Shown piece after piece: positions 24,640 to 60,771 of a DNA stretch of 64,000 bases. Each line of letters opens with the position of its first letter. Positions within the stretch are counted from its first letter, which is position 1. This DNA is from a bacterium (GTDB taxonomy: Bacteria; Actinomycetota; Acidimicrobiia; Spongiisociales; Spongiisociaceae), in the NCBI GenBank assembly GCA_026710435.1, contig JAPOQZ010000166.1, positions 1 through 64,000 of the forward strand. Direction: 5' to 3'. A model generated the notes under the pieces. It saw nothing but the letters and a program-made list of their open reading frames with translations. It was not told where the DNA came from and searched no databases. The translations under genes were made by a program, and so were the position numbers.

Positions 24640-24745
24640 CTAGGAGGGTACTGAACAATGACGATTGGTCGGGCCTGCCGCCGGCCGACCCTGAGTCATG
24701 GATGGCGATTGGCAGGCCGCTGGTGGATCGCTCAGGACAATCTAG
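24640..24745 (+). mobile_element. MITE-like element, copy B
   Basis: CTAGGAGGGTACTGAACAATGACGATTGGTCGGGCCTGCCGCCGGCCGACCC...GGCGATTGGCAGGCCGCTGGTGGATCGCTCAGGACAATCTAG. Confidence 0.8.
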
Positions 24746-24969
24746 CGGGGTTTACTGCCGGGCAGACCACCTTGTGCAACTCCGCTCGAGGTTGTTGCCT
24801 ATCCCCTTCGCACCGGGTCTTCCGGCAGCCTCCTTGCAGGGCTGGGCATGCTGAACCCTAGGAAGTCCCCGGAGACGCCACCAGCCTGACCGGTGGTCGC
24901 TGGTCAGCGGTCAGTAACCAATGGCGGTGGAAATGGCTGGTAGTCTCTTCGGGATCCTGTAGCGATGCC

Positions 24970-30598: not shown

Positions 30599-30790
30599 CC
30601 TGCCTAACCTCGCCCTATGCCAACTGGTAGTGGCCGGTCAGGGGCACCCGGTAGGGAATGACCTTAGCGTCACCCGAGGACGGCTTGTGCTCGGGAGGGT
30701 CCTGTCCATTCCGAGGAAACTGCTGGAGCCCCTTGCTGTCCCGACGCTCGATGACAAGACCCGTGATGAGCGGACGGATGGACAACCCTC

Positions 30791-30894
30791 CAGGAGGTGC
30801 CGAGCAGTCCACCAGCGGCCTGCCAATCGCCAGCATACCTCCCGGGTCGGCGGGCGGCGGGCCCGAGCAAATCGTCATTCGTCAGCACCCTTTA
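30791..30894 (-). mobile_element. MITE-like element, copy C (minus orientation)
   Basis: Reverse complement GTAAAGGGTGCTGACGAATGACGATTTGCTCGGGCCCGCCGCC...GCTGGCGATTGGCAGGCCGCTGGTGGACTGCTCGGCACCTCCTG aligns with A, B, D. Confidence 0.8.
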
Positions 30895-31846
30895 CCGCTC
30901 GGTCGTGACCAGGAAGGCTTCCGAGGACCGGCCTGCCGAGCGCGGCAAGGCTTGATCGAAGGTCAGGAGGAAGGGCCGCGGTAACATCGAGGACCGCTCC
31001 AGTGACTGGATGGGAGAACCTCAGCCGCCGGGCATGGAGCCAGACCCTGCCGGGATCCACACCGGAACCTGCCGGTCTTCCGTAGACGGGATCGCCCACA
31101 AGGTGCCGCCCGATGGATTCCATATGGACCCTTATCTGGTGGGTCCTCCCCGTTTCCAGGCGCACTTCGAGAAGGCTCAGCGATGGTCGGGACCAGTTCG
31201 CCAGCCTCCGGTAGTGGGTCACCGCCGGCTTGCCTGCCGGACCCACGAAGCGCCGCGCCCTGCGCCGGTCGATGGGCGCTTCGATGGTTCCTGCCACGAC
31301 ATGGAACGAGCCATGCACGAGGGTCAGGTACTCCCTCCTTACCGCCCGAGCGGCCAGGGCACTACCCAGAGCCCGGTGGGCATCCGGATGCAGGGCAACA
31401 GTCATCACCCCGGAAGTGTCCTTGTCGAGGCGGTGGACAATACCCCAGCGTGGGTAGTCCCCTACACCTTCTACCTCAGGCCAGCGGTCGAGGATCGCAG
31501 ACACCAGCGTGCCGCGGCGGTGCCCGGGGCCCGGATGGGTCACCATCCCGGCAGGCTTGTTCACGACTGCCAGGTGGGAATCCTCAAACAGGACGTCGAG
31601 CGGAATGGGTTCGGGTCGGACCACTCGAGGACGGTCCGGAATGAACCAGACCCCGTCCCCGGCTGCAACCCGGGTCCTAGGTAGTACGCGTGGCCCTCCG
31701 GTCTCCGAAGATCTCCCGGCTTGGCCGGTCTCGATCAACCTCCTTGCTCGGCTACGGCTCAGGTCCCCCAGTCGAGCCAGGGCGTAGTCCAGCCTCGCTC
31801 CGTCCATCTCCGCCGGGACCGTCAGCTGTCTTGTCTGGCTGCCCAA
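30875..31846 (-). CDS. rluD: RluD-family 23S rRNA pseudouridine synthase
   Basis: S4-like N-terminus, VNKPAGMVTHPGPGHRRGTLVSAIL, IVHRLDKDTSGVMTVAL, GRTHQIRVHMESIG. Confidence 0.93.
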   Translation of the reverse strand: MGSQTRQLTVPAEMDGARLDYALARLGDLSRSRARRLIETGQAGRSSETGGPRVLPRTRVAAGDGVWFIPDRPRVVRPEPIPLDVLFEDSHLAVVNKPAGMVTHPGPGHRRGTLVSAILDRWPEVEGVGDYPRWGIVHRLDKDTSGVMTVALHPDAHRALGSALAARAVRREYLTLVHGSFHVVAGTIEAPIDRRRARRFVGPAGKPAVTHYRRLANWSRPSLSLLEVRLETGRTHQIRVHMESIGRHLVGDPVYGRPAGSGVDPGRVWLHARRLRFSHPVTGAVLDVTAALPPDLRSSLAALGRPVLGSLPGHDRAVKGADE

Positions 31847-33038: not shown

Positions 33039-33271
33039 GAGGCACCTCCATCCTGGAATCCGTCAATCGAGAGTTGCTCTCCGGTCGATCTGAACGATGA
33101 CCCGAGTCGCGCCCCGAGTAATCGTAACGGTCGGCAGGCCGGCAAACCACCTACGGTCGAGTCCGGGGAATTCTCCACGAGCGGCGAGGATCGGTGGAAA
33201 TGGCTTGCCCGGCCCGTACTAGCCTTCCCGTCTCGGAACGGCGCGACGTTCACGCGGTGGGTGAAGACCTA

Positions 33272-33348
33272 CCCGGTCGCGAATGATGTGGGTGTTGTGG
33301 CATGCTGCCGTGGGTGTGTCTGGAAAACATGGAGAGTCAGGGCTAGTA
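33272..33348 (+). repeat. dispersed repeat, second copy of 1034-1112
   Basis: CCCGGTCGCGAATGATG..TTGTGGCATGCTGCCG..TCTGGAAAACATGGAGAGTCAGGGCTAGT. Confidence 0.7.
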
Positions 33349-33381: not shown

Positions 33382-33488
33382 CTAGGAGGGTGCTGAGCAA
33401 TCCACCAGCGGCCTGCCAACCGCCGGCAAAATGCCTGGGCTGGCGGGCGGCAGGCCCGAGCAATCGTCATTGTTCAGCACCCTCCTAG
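33382..33488 (-). mobile_element. MITE-like element, copy D (best-preserved termini)
   Basis: CTAGGAGGGTGCTGAGCAAT ... ATTGTTCAGCACCCTCCTAG; 20-bp terminal inverted repeats with one mismatch. Confidence 0.88.
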
Positions 33489-33507: not shown

Positions 33508-36500
33508 ATGAGCGGAACACGTCCGGCAGGACAGCCGACCGACTTCCAGCGGGTCCCCCCGGGACTTGACCTCCCTGCCCTCGATGCCCGCGTTCTAGAG
33601 AAGTGGGACCGGGAGGACACCTTTCGCATCTCGATCGAGATGCGTCCGCTAGACCGAGAGTACACATTCTACGACGGACCCCCCTTCGCATCGGGTAGCC
33701 CCCACTACGGACACATCCTCGCCGGCATCATCAAGGACATCGTGCCGCGTTACTGGACGATGCGAGGCCACCGGGTAGAACGTCGGTTCGGATGGGACAC
33801 CCACGGACTACCTGTCGAGATGGAGGTCGAGAAACGCCTTGGGATCTCGGGTCCCCGCGAAGTGGAACGACTCGGAGTCGCAGAATTCAACGAGGCCTGC
33901 CGGAGCATGGTCGAAGTCACGACTGCGGAGTGGGAGGACATCACGCGGAAGATCGGCCGCTGGGTCGACTTCAAGAACGATTACAAGACCATGGACCCCG
34001 GATTCATGGAAAGCGTCTGGTGGGTTTTCAGAACGCTGTGGGACAAGGGTCTCGTCTACCGCGCGTTCAAGGTTCTTCCCTATTCGTGGGCAGCCGGCAC
34101 CACACTGTCCAACTTCGAGGCGACCCTTGGTGGATACCAGGAAGTGGAAGATCCGGCCGTGACAGTGCGCCTCGAGGTTCTGGATGCACCCGGCAACGGG
34201 CCGGCCAGGCCAGGCGACTACCTGACGATCTGGACCACCACACCGTGGACCCTCCCGGGAAACCTGGTGGTGGCGGTCGGAGAGGACTTGGAGTACGGTG
34301 CGGTCGAGCTGGGCGGGAATCGATACTGGGTAGCAACGCCGAGAATCGAAGCCGTCTTTGGAGAGCCGCTAGAGCCGGTCGTGACATCCACCGGCCGAGA
34401 TTTGCTCGGCGTCTCCTACCGCCCCTCCTTCGGTCACTTCAACGCACTCCGGGATCGCGGGGCGTTCCAGGTGATTCCCAGCCCGGCGGTGAACACCGAC
34501 GAAGGTACCGGCTTGGTCCATATGGCGCCGGCCTACGGCGAGGACGACTTGTACGCGTTGCAGGCCCAAGGGCTCGACCTGCTCGTGGACCCGGTGAACC
34601 TCGAAGCACGGTTCACCGACGCCATCCCAGAGTTGTCGGGCTTGCATGTCCACGAGGCCGAGCAGAGGATCATCGAGTTGCTCGACCGCGCCGGCGTCCT
34701 GATGAAGAACGAGCGTATCCTCCACTCTTATCCCTTCTGCTACCGGACCGATCAGCCTCTCATCTACAAGGCTATCCCCACATGGTTCGTGAAGGTCGAG
34801 GAGGTCCGTGACCGGCTAGTAGAGCTGAACCGTCGGATACATTGGGTGCCCGAACGCGTGGGCGCCAACCGTTTCGGCAATTGGCTGCAGGATGCACGGG
34901 ACTGGGCCGTCTCCCGTAACCGGTTCTGGGGGAGCTGCATCCCCGTGTGGGAATGCGAGACCTGCGGGCACCAGGAGTGCATCGGAAGCCGCCGCGAATT
35001 GGAGAGCCGATCCGGAATCTGGTTAGAGGACCTGCACAAGCACATTGTGGACGAGGTCACTTTCCCTTGCCGCTCGTGCGCGGCAGCCGACCAAAGCGGT
35101 CTCATGGTACGGGTTCCCGAAGTTCTGGACTGCTGGTTCGAGTCGGGCTCCATGCCATATGCCCAGATCCATTACCCGTTCGACAACGAGGACCGGTTCC
35201 CCGCCAAGTTCCCCGCCGACTTCATCGCCGAGGGACTAGATCAGACCCGTGGCTGGTTCTACACACTGCACGTCCTGGCGACCGCTCTGTTCGACAACGT
35301 AGCCTTCCAGAACTGCGTCGTGAACGGGATGATCCTGGCCGAGGACGGACGCAAGATGTCCAAGAGGCTCAAGAACTACCCGGAACCGTCGGCGGTTCTG
35401 GACAGGTACGGTGGAGACGCCGTACGTGCCTACCTGATCGATTCCCCGGTGCTGCGAGCCGAACCACTCCGCTTCTCCGAAGCGGGCGTGCGGGATGTGG
35501 TACGCACCGTCCTCCTGCCCTTCTGGAACGCCTACTCGTTCTTCACCACCTACGCGGAAGCAGACGGGATCAGGTTCGATGACCTCAGGGGGGCGCCGCC
35601 GCCGGACGGAAGACCCGAGATAGACCGCTGGATTCTCAGCGTTCTCCAGTCGCTGATCGGCCAGACCAACCGGCTCATGGAGGGCTATTACCTGTATGCG
35701 GTCGTCAGTCCGGTACTCGGGTTCGTCAACGACCTCACCAACTGGTACGTCCGGAGGTCGCGTCGGCGCTTCTGGAGAAGCCGCGAGGGCAACGAACTGG
35801 ACAAGCGGGCTGCTTTCGCCACGCTGTACGAGGTTCTGGTCACATTCTGCCGGCTCCTGGCGCCCGTCCTTCCATTCGTGACCGAGGAGATCCACACCGG
35901 GTTGGTTCCAGAAGCGACCAGCGTCCACCACGCCGATTACCCCGCGGTCGCCGAAGAGATGATCGACAAGGACCTCGAGAACTCGATGACGATTGCGCGC
36001 CAAGTGGTGACCCTAGGGCGACACCTGCGCGCGGAGCAGGGAATCGGTGTCCGCCAGCCACTGTCGCAGCTCACGGTGGTGAGCCGCGATCAAGCTGTGG
36101 CCGGCGCGGTGGCACGTCACCTCCGGATCATCTCAGAGGAACTCAACGTGAAGGTCGTAGAGACGTCGGCTGACGAACATTCGGTCGTCGAGTTACGTGC
36201 CAAGGCGAACTTCAAGCGACTCGGTCCCCGGTTGGGAGCCGAGGTCAGAGGTGTAGCCGCGCGGCTCGCCGCTCTGTCTCCAGCAGAAGTTACCGCCCTC
36301 GTCGAGCGTGGACACACAGTGATCGGTGACCACCTGATCGCGGTCGACGACGTCGTTATCACCCGTTACCCCCGCCCGGGCACCGCAGTCGCATCGGAGG
36401 GCGCCCTGTCGGTGGCTCTCGATGTGGATCTCTCGGACGAACTGCGAGCGGAAGGCCAGGCACGAGAAGTCATATCGAGAATCCAGCGGGCTCGGCGGGA

Positions 36501-36705
36501 AGTGGGCCTGGAAGTATCCGACCGGATACATGTCGGATACCACACCGCCGACGAAGTCCTCCGGTCCTCCATCGAAAGCCACATCACCCTCATCGCCGGG
36601 GAGGTCCTCGCTCTCTCCATAACGGCGGACCCGGTCGCCCAAGGAGATCCGCTGCCGATCGGCAATGCCCGGATTTCCTTCACGGTCGCGAAGGCAGCAG
36701 ACTGA
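33508..36705 (+). CDS. ileS: isoleucyl-tRNA synthetase (type 2 / IleRS2-like)
   Basis: YDGPPFASGSPHYGHILAGIIKD, KMSKRLKNYPEP, no C-terminal Cys4 zinc motif; AGGAG RBS before ATG. Confidence 0.96.
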   Translation: MSGTRPAGQPTDFQRVPPGLDLPALDARVLEKWDREDTFRISIEMRPLDREYTFYDGPPFASGSPHYGHILAGIIKDIVPRYWTMRGHRVERRFGWDTHGLPVEMEVEKRLGISGPREVERLGVAEFNEACRSMVEVTTAEWEDITRKIGRWVDFKNDYKTMDPGFMESVWWVFRTLWDKGLVYRAFKVLPYSWAAGTTLSNFEATLGGYQEVEDPAVTVRLEVLDAPGNGPARPGDYLTIWTTTPWTLPGNLVVAVGEDLEYGAVELGGNRYWVATPRIEAVFGEPLEPVVTSTGRDLLGVSYRPSFGHFNALRDRGAFQVIPSPAVNTDEGTGLVHMAPAYGEDDLYALQAQGLDLLVDPVNLEARFTDAIPELSGLHVHEAEQRIIELLDRAGVLMKNERILHSYPFCYRTDQPLIYKAIPTWFVKVEEVRDRLVELNRRIHWVPERVGANRFGNWLQDARDWAVSRNRFWGSCIPVWECETCGHQECIGSRRELESRSGIWLEDLHKHIVDEVTFPCRSCAAADQSGLMVRVPEVLDCWFESGSMPYAQIHYPFDNEDRFPAKFPADFIAEGLDQTRGWFYTLHVLATALFDNVAFQNCVVNGMILAEDGRKMSKRLKNYPEPSAVLDRYGGDAVRAYLIDSPVLRAEPLRFSEAGVRDVVRTVLLPFWNAYSFFTTYAEADGIRFDDLRGAPPPDGRPEIDRWILSVLQSLIGQTNRLMEGYYLYAVVSPVLGFVNDLTNWYVRRSRRRFWRSREGNELDKRAAFATLYEVLVTFCRLLAPVLPFVTEEIHTGLVPEATSVHHADYPAVAEEMIDKDLENSMTIARQVVTLGRHLRAEQGIGVRQPLSQLTVVSRDQAVAGAVARHLRIISEELNVKVVETSADEHSVVELRAKANFKRLGPRLGAEVRGVAARLAALSPAEVTALVERGHTVIGDHLIAVDDVVITRYPRPGTAVASEGALSVALDVDLSDELRAEGQAREVISRIQRARREVGLEVSDRIHVGYHTADEVLRSSIESHITLIAGEVLALSITADPVAQGDPLPIGNARISFTVAKAAD

Positions 36706-59200: not shown

Positions 59201-59230
59201 ACGCCTAACACTATCGAAACGGCCGTGATC

Positions 59231-59299
59231 CCTGGTCAGACGCTCATATACAACCCCCGTTCGCCCGGTACTAGCCCCGGCGTGAAGAGCCGGGCCTAG
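59231..59299 (+). repeat. small dispersed repeat family 2, full copy
   Basis: CCTGGTCAGACGCTCATATACAACCCCCG...GCCCCGGCGTGAAGAGCCGGGCCTAG. Confidence 0.6.
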
Positions 59300-59362: not shown

Positions 59363-60004
59363 GTGACTTCACTTGTGCATCTGGTGCGCCATGGCGAAGT
59401 GGAGAATCCGCGGAACCTCGTATATGCCGATCTGCCAGGATTCCACCTCAGCCGGCGTGGACAACGGGAAGCGGCCTGGACCGGAGACTTCCTGGCATCC
59501 CGGCCGATCGAGGCCGTGTATTCGTCTCCACTCGACCGGGCGATGGAAACAGCCTCGGTGATCGCCGGCTACCACGGTCTCGAACCGAAGCCTATTGACA
59601 GGCTCACAGAGTGGACACTCATGAACCGCTGGAAGGGCCTGCCGTGGATCGATCTCGATACCCACCGGCCCGGCGAACTCGAAAGGTATCTCAAGGATCC
59701 GACGCGGATGGATTTCGCCCCCGAGTCGTTGCAGGACCTTGCAGATAGGATTGCGCTGACGGTTGCAGGGTTGGCAAGTAGAAGTCCGGATGGTGAGATA
59801 GTGGCGGTCTCGCACCAGGACCCCATCCAAGCCGCTCGTCTGGTGCTAACCGGCCAACCCCTGAGTGACTTGCACTCGGCCAAACCTCACCACTGCGAGG
59901 CAATAAGCCTGGCTCCCGGGCGGCCTTGGTCGGAGACCGGTCGGATCGTCCCGGATATCCGACAGGAGCCATTAGGGGGCGCCACCCTCCCCCAGCACCC
60001 CTAG
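59363..60004 (+). CDS. histidine phosphatase family protein
   Basis: VHLVRHGEVENP, VYSSPLDRAMETASVIA, VAVSHQDPI. Confidence 0.92.
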   Translation: MTSLVHLVRHGEVENPRNLVYADLPGFHLSRRGQREAAWTGDFLASRPIEAVYSSPLDRAMETASVIAGYHGLEPKPIDRLTEWTLMNRWKGLPWIDLDTHRPGELERYLKDPTRMDFAPESLQDLADRIALTVAGLASRSPDGEIVAVSHQDPIQAARLVLTGQPLSDLHSAKPHHCEAISLAPGRPWSETGRIVPDIRQEPLGGATLPQHP

Positions 60005-60137
60005 CCCCGATTCTTCGTGTTTCCAGACCCACCCTCGGCAGGATGCCATCTTGACCACACCATCACAACCGGGCCCGGCGTCACACGACGCGCGAAGGTC
60101 GCGCCGGATCGAGACGGGACTATCGAACAGACATAAC

Positions 60138-60204
60138 CCCTGGTCAGAAGCTCATAGCCCACGCTATTTTCGCCGAGCACAAACCCCCGCATGAAGAACC
60201 AGGG
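60138..60204 (+). repeat. small dispersed repeat family 2, full copy with complementary ends
   Basis: CCCTGGTCAGAAGCTCATA...CACAAACCCCCGCATGAAGAACCAGGG; CCCTGGT/ACCAGGG ends complementary; abuts NUDIX stop codon. Confidence 0.65.
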
Positions 60205-60771
60205 CTACCGTATCTGCCGGAACAGGTCGGCGTCGGTATCGAAGGCAAGGTCAGGCATATCATCGAGAGCGAACCACCCTGTGTCCACCGCGTCCGACCC
60301 CGCCTCGAGACGACCACCGACGACCCGTCCCGAGAACCAGATGCATACGCTCACTTTGAGTGGATCGTGGAAGTTGGTGGCGACGAAGATCGGATCACCC
60401 ACCTGGACCACGAGACCGGTCTCCTCCAGAACCTCGCGAGCTCCGGCCTCCCGCACGTCCTCGCCATAGTCCATGTAGCCGGCAGGGATCGACCACAGAC
60501 CGGATCGCGAGGAACCAGGTCCCCTCTTCACCATCAGGATGCGGCCCTCCGGGTCACGTAGCACGACGGCAACCGCAACAGATGGAGAGCGGAAGTCGAT
60601 CCGGCCGCAGTCCGGACAAACTCCGCGCTCCCTCGAGTACAGGAGTGCCCGCTTGAGCCGGGCGCCGCAATCGGCACAGAATACAGCCTCACCGGGCCAT
60701 GTGGCATTGCCGTCGGACGTCACCGCGGCAAGGGTAAACCGTGGCTTCGCAAGACGATGCACACGCGCCAC
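60205..60771 (-). CDS. NUDIX hydrolase with N-terminal zinc ribbon
   Basis: CADCGARL...CPDCGRIDFRSPSVAVAVVL; SIPAGYMDYGEDVREAGAREVLEETGL Nudix box. Confidence 0.9.
   Translation of the reverse strand: MARVHRLAKPRFTLAAVTSDGNATWPGEAVFCADCGARLKRALLYSRERGVCPDCGRIDFRSPSVAVAVVLRDPEGRILMVKRGPGSSRSGLWSIPAGYMDYGEDVREAGAREVLEETGLVVQVGDPIFVATNFHDPLKVSVCIWFSGRVVGGRLEAGSDAVDTGWFALDDMPDLAFDTDADLFRQIR

Follow-up and report, generated by a model that had tools for sequence, protein, structure and literature searches.

MITEs linked to IS1182 are already known from the archaeon Methanosarcina acetivorans, in which elements of 160–169 bp, partnered by ISMac2, are present in 7–14 copies (PMC3852290). IS1182 elements themselves are exemplified by ISPse1 of Paracoccus, which is 1653 bp long and has a 16-bp inverted repeat and a 4-bp direct repeat (PMC3281130). 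Palindromes serve as targets for some members of the IS1182 family, and in the case of IS1272 stem-loops are replaced (PMC5678879). Among small bacterial repeats, ERIC reaches up to 711 copies in Photorhabdus luminescens (PMC10969869). The MITE described here is a new family of this known kind, most likely also linked to IS1182.

The window (the whole 64-kb stretch analysed) contains four copies of this element. The first-pass annotation had described a four-copy, MITE-like family without a transposase, and the family is real, with limits refined to 1128–1235 (copy A, plus strand), 24640–24746 (copy B, plus strand), 30790–30896 (copy C, minus strand) and 33382–33488 (copy D, minus strand, including both CTAG target-site duplications). 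Copy D is intact, and many copies 97–100% identical to it exist elsewhere in the genome. Copy A is older (about 88% identity to D), and its left CTAG is mutated to CCAG; copies B and C are also older (about 84% each), B having a decayed right end and C being degenerate, with both ends decayed. Patterns built from the ends and the interior gave no matches in shuffled sequence.

The element proper of copy D spans 99 bp (33386–33484, minus strand) between two CTAG tetramers at 33382–33385 and 33485–33488, CTAG having been shown to be the target-site duplication at another copy (see below). Its terminal inverted repeats (TIRs) are GAGGGTGCTGAGCAAT at the right end of the element (33386–33401, plus strand) and GAGGGTGCTGAACAAT at the left end (33469–33484, minus strand), and both sides read CTAG followed by GAGGGTGCTGA[A/G]CAAT. 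The 20-bp termini with a single mismatch are thus as first claimed, except that the outermost CTAG on each side represents the target-site duplication and the TIR proper is 16 bp long. A transposase gene could not fit into 99 bp, and the element encodes nothing.

One copy, L010:569–675, lies inside a 207-bp repeat and is flanked by CTAG on both sides, whereas empty copies of the same repeat (L067, L083, L064 and L012/L118) have a single CTAG at that place. Two CTAGs at the filled site against one in at least four empty paralogs show that 4 bp are duplicated on insertion; this is the ordinary kind of duplication, unlike stem-loop replacement. In G001, a genome of the same genus, and G002, one of the same family, the site upstream of ileS that holds copy D is without the MITE; when the flanks are joined across copy D, they align to the ileS upstream region of both genomes, loosely in the spacer itself. 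Insertion of copy D at this position is apparently recent. Another copy (L121:5931–6037) breaks a reading frame at a point where tandem paralogs read straight through; from our own reading of the sequence, we take the interrupted frame to resemble an EamA-type transporter. Target-site duplications and empty sites in relatives, both proposed earlier as checks, were therefore found, and together with the TIRs, the high copy number and the lack of an internal transposase they bear out the MITE-like designation.

The assembly to which the window belongs (G000) comprises 4.91 Mb in 270 contigs. A comparison of copy D with this assembly gave 417 first-look candidates, and all 40 scored same-strand matches are full length or nearly so and 97–100% identical. 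Across the whole assembly, the TIR has 595 matches at two or fewer mismatches, against none for its reversed pattern. A 1.165-Mb sample contains 90 copies, 78 of them near full length, with approximately 78–100% identity to D. Scaling from this sample, which favours long contigs, and considered with the TIR counts across the whole assembly, we arrive at approximately 380 copies, which together make up 0.8% of the genome. The high genomic copy number suspected from the window alone is thereby confirmed, and the sequence extends far beyond the four original loci; the density in the window is itself near the genome average (four copies in 64 kb versus 4.9 expected).

The copies form a graded age series. 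A recent subfamily that shares the loop of copy D accounts for 19 of the 78 near-full copies and has a mean pairwise identity of 0.95, compared with 0.85 for the others. CTAG is kept at both ends in 34 of the 78. The tetramer is rare here, with 1164 occurrences against 3824 expected from base composition. With genes delimited by a crude ORF call, genic insertions are depleted: 15 of the 67 that could be classified lie in genes, whereas among free CTAG sites the figure is 508 of 961 (p = 1e-6).

Other repeats in this genome are also bounded by CTAG. The approximately 207-bp repeat mentioned above has ends of the form CTAG|CCCCGATTCTTCAT and occurs in the window at 929–1109, 33226–33346 (partial), 59216–59299 (partial) and 60001–60208. 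The sample holds 24 near-full copies (42 BLAST hits), and a search with one copy (L067) gave no Rfam match. Ten of the 90 MITE copies are situated within 150 bp of this repeat, and copies A and D are both close to it. The sample also contains 10 instances of another sequence end, TGTCCTGTATC (L105:187, L107:115, L109:6974, L120:299 and 6618, L071:2697, L074:7281, L076:6769, L100:2175 and L102:319), always directly after CTAG and several times at MITE ends. It possibly belongs to a CTAG-targeting IS, which would be IS481-like. This is a genome in which several small CTAG-bounded elements use the same landing sites.

To which transposase does the MITE respond? It is very likely an element of the IS1182 type, moved in trans by an IS1182-family transposase with CTAG as the target. 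We searched for IS1182 transposases across 138 genomes of the order, using a pairing script that permitted four YTAR tetramers outside the TIR. The script found 11 elements with matching inverted repeats, and all 11 have CTAG at both ends. With the element of G000, which was added by eye, there are 12, all CTAG-bounded, and their TIRs match the MITE ends at 9–14 of 16 positions; the best-matching TIRs have a GAGNNTGCTGA core. As a background, 60 kb of G000 contained two matches at 13 or more positions, one of which, at 16 of 16, is probably itself a MITE end. Some further complete IS1182 transposase loci of the order gave no inverted-repeat pair with the script. Among the matches listed for named genomes, two contigs of the Micrococcales MAG DOLJORAL78_68_866 carry an IS left end, CTAGGAGGGTGCTGAACAAT, that is identical to the MITE end at 20 of 20 positions. 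One of these ends leads into the N-terminus of an IS1182 transposase (NF033551, E = 7e-38); the contig breaks off within this IS, so that the sequence covers its left end and the N-terminal part of the transposase. A match in Propionicimonas (L155) was rejected as evidence, with one TIR copy at up to six mismatches in 8 kb and no obvious transposase among the adjoining ORFs.

Within G000, the only intact IS1182 transposase found is located on C243 (543 aa; NF033551, 295 bits versus a cut-off of 270). Its TIRs match the MITE TIR at 9 and 11 of 16 positions, a poorer match, and the other MITE-carrying genomes of the taxonomic family yielded no intact IS1182 gene. The search for a transposase with matching TIRs, also proposed at first pass, has been answered in part: related TIRs are present on IS1182 elements of the order and a 20/20 end is present in Micrococcales, but the intact element of the same genome matches less well. 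The helper in G000 is perhaps the C243 element, or else one that is missing from the assembly or collapsed there, a common fate of repeated ISs in MAGs. At L068:1384–1402 there is a lone IS-like end, TAGGAGGGTGGTGCTAAAT, which resembles the IS1182 end of G000 and has ORFs of 104–152 aa alongside. The first-pass annotation did not recognise the element family; its designation as MITE-like stands, and the IS family is most likely IS1182.

The MITE could instead be moved by another DDE family that targets CTAG or YTAR, such as the IS5 group of the IS5 family. Members of this group have a YTAR target, with which CTAG agrees, and TIRs that begin with a GGAAGGTGC-like string and resemble the MITE TIR; furthermore, G000 has other DDE_Tnp_1 transposases. 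An IS5-group origin was in fact our initial guess from the TIR, and we dropped it once IS1182 elements showed both CTAG and the TIR, in one case with an end matching at 20 of 20. Moreover, at the DDE_Tnp_1 loci of G000 that we fetched, TIR-like matches (up to three mismatches in 15 bases) are only MITE copies or fragments or lie within the IS1182 gene, and we regard this origin as improbable. Still less probable is that the cell maintains the sequence as a functional repeat, be it an RNA hairpin, a terminator or a protein-binding palindrome, in the manner of REP/BIME or ERIC. Copy D folded alone does form a strong hairpin (−67.5 kcal/mol, z = −6.6), related families have an inner inverted repeat with differing sequences, and among 40 diverse copies the number of pairs changed on both sides exceeds that in column shuffles (19 versus 9.9), an excess that the kinship of the sequences can also yield. 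However, column pairing in the same 40 copies is barely above that of shuffles (85.9% versus 85.0%), and consensus folding with RNAalifold yields little of the hairpin. Intergenic insertion sites show no significant bias towards convergent (p = 1.0) or divergent (p = 0.18) gene pairs, and a preference for either was discarded. With no Rfam match either, we rejected a conserved-RNA role; the CTAG duplication and the empty sites demonstrate transposition, and the overall pattern is one of decay without strong structural selection.

The IS1182 reading suggests a simple mechanism. A DDE transposase of the IS1182 family, acting in trans, would bind the TIR GAGGGTGCTGARCAAT and move the 99-bp element into CTAG, whose 4 bp would become duplicated. 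Copies that hit genes would mostly be purged by selection, and the remaining copies would decay. Apart from the trans-acting IS1182 transposase as helper, the spread would need nothing beyond selfish transposition: because copies avoid genes and there is no clear maintenance of the hairpin, selfish spread plus purifying selection would suffice.

To follow the element through relatives, we counted matches to CTAGGAGGGTGCTGA with one mismatch allowed. There are 536 in G000, 9–58 in 12 of the 14 other genomes of the family and none in the remaining two; genomes of the order outside the family have 0–6, with 0–3 for reversed controls. Paired elements of 103–118 bp in G001, G006, G010 and G014 have the same TIR and interiors unlike that of copy D. 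Summed over 23 elements, the inner inverted repeat scores 135 compared with 86.9 in shuffled interiors (sd 4.8, highest shuffle 104). It is missing in several elements, including all three family-2 elements of G000 that were tested, and as the elements are related, the excess across families is suggestive only. It is rather improbable that there is a family-wide MITE lineage whose TIR and two-tier hairpin plan are fixed and whose interiors turn over between species, the hairpin shape being required for mobilisation by an IS1182 transposase and the helper being mostly absent from the genomes. The second family of G000, approximately 106 bp long and with the same TIR core (TAGGAGGGTGCTGAGAAAC), is found at L083:9148–9251, L076:6663, L120:11740 and L108:12779, and its interior resembles those of the MITEs of G006 and G010 by eye. 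At L084:1521–1727, a family-1 copy adjoins what appears to be a truncated family-2 element.

Copy D is placed directly in front of ileS (33508–36705, plus strand; Pfam tRNA-synt_1, Anticodon_1 and DUF5915), which encodes isoleucyl-tRNA synthetase and lies outside the element. The ATG of ileS is 19 bp beyond the end of copy D, with a GAGGAG ribosome-binding-like site in between. Copy D would be transcribed within the ileS leader, and its predicted hairpin may affect ileS expression. The position just upstream of an essential gene represents a natural test of such a hairpin effect.

In Rfam, there is no match above the gathering score, only noise with E values of 0.03–0.09 that falls far below the cut-off, so this part of the earlier concern that the repeat might be an already named element is removed. 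IMG/VR contains no exact match to the TIR, BLAST against plasmid and phage collections likewise gave none, and the TIR string is absent from the open-access papers covered.

The Correia elements of Neisseria and ERIC of Enterobacteriaceae and Vibrionaceae are likewise imperfect palindromes of approximately 100–200 bp in tens to hundreds of copies. Their TIRs differ from those of this MITE, and the Correia target is TA. IS1182 elements such as ISPse1 combine a 16-bp TIR with a 4-bp duplication, as does the MITE, and in this order they are also bounded by CTAG and carry related TIRs. The MITE encodes nothing, whereas their transposase has approximately 500 aa. The MITEs of M. acetivorans are also short and non-autonomous and have an IS1182-type partner, with TIRs of 25–26 bp; of the two, the 160-bp one with 14 copies has a reported 4-bp direct repeat (PMC3852290). 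In contrast to those archaeal elements (160–169 bp, 7–14 copies), the present one belongs to a bacterium, is 99 bp long and has approximately 380 copies. As a genomic parasite it is genuine but of an ordinary type; what sets it apart is the copy number and the place of one copy just upstream of an essential gene. A likely transposase family can now be named for this high-copy bacterial repeat, and a large bacterial example is added to the IS1182-linked MITEs.
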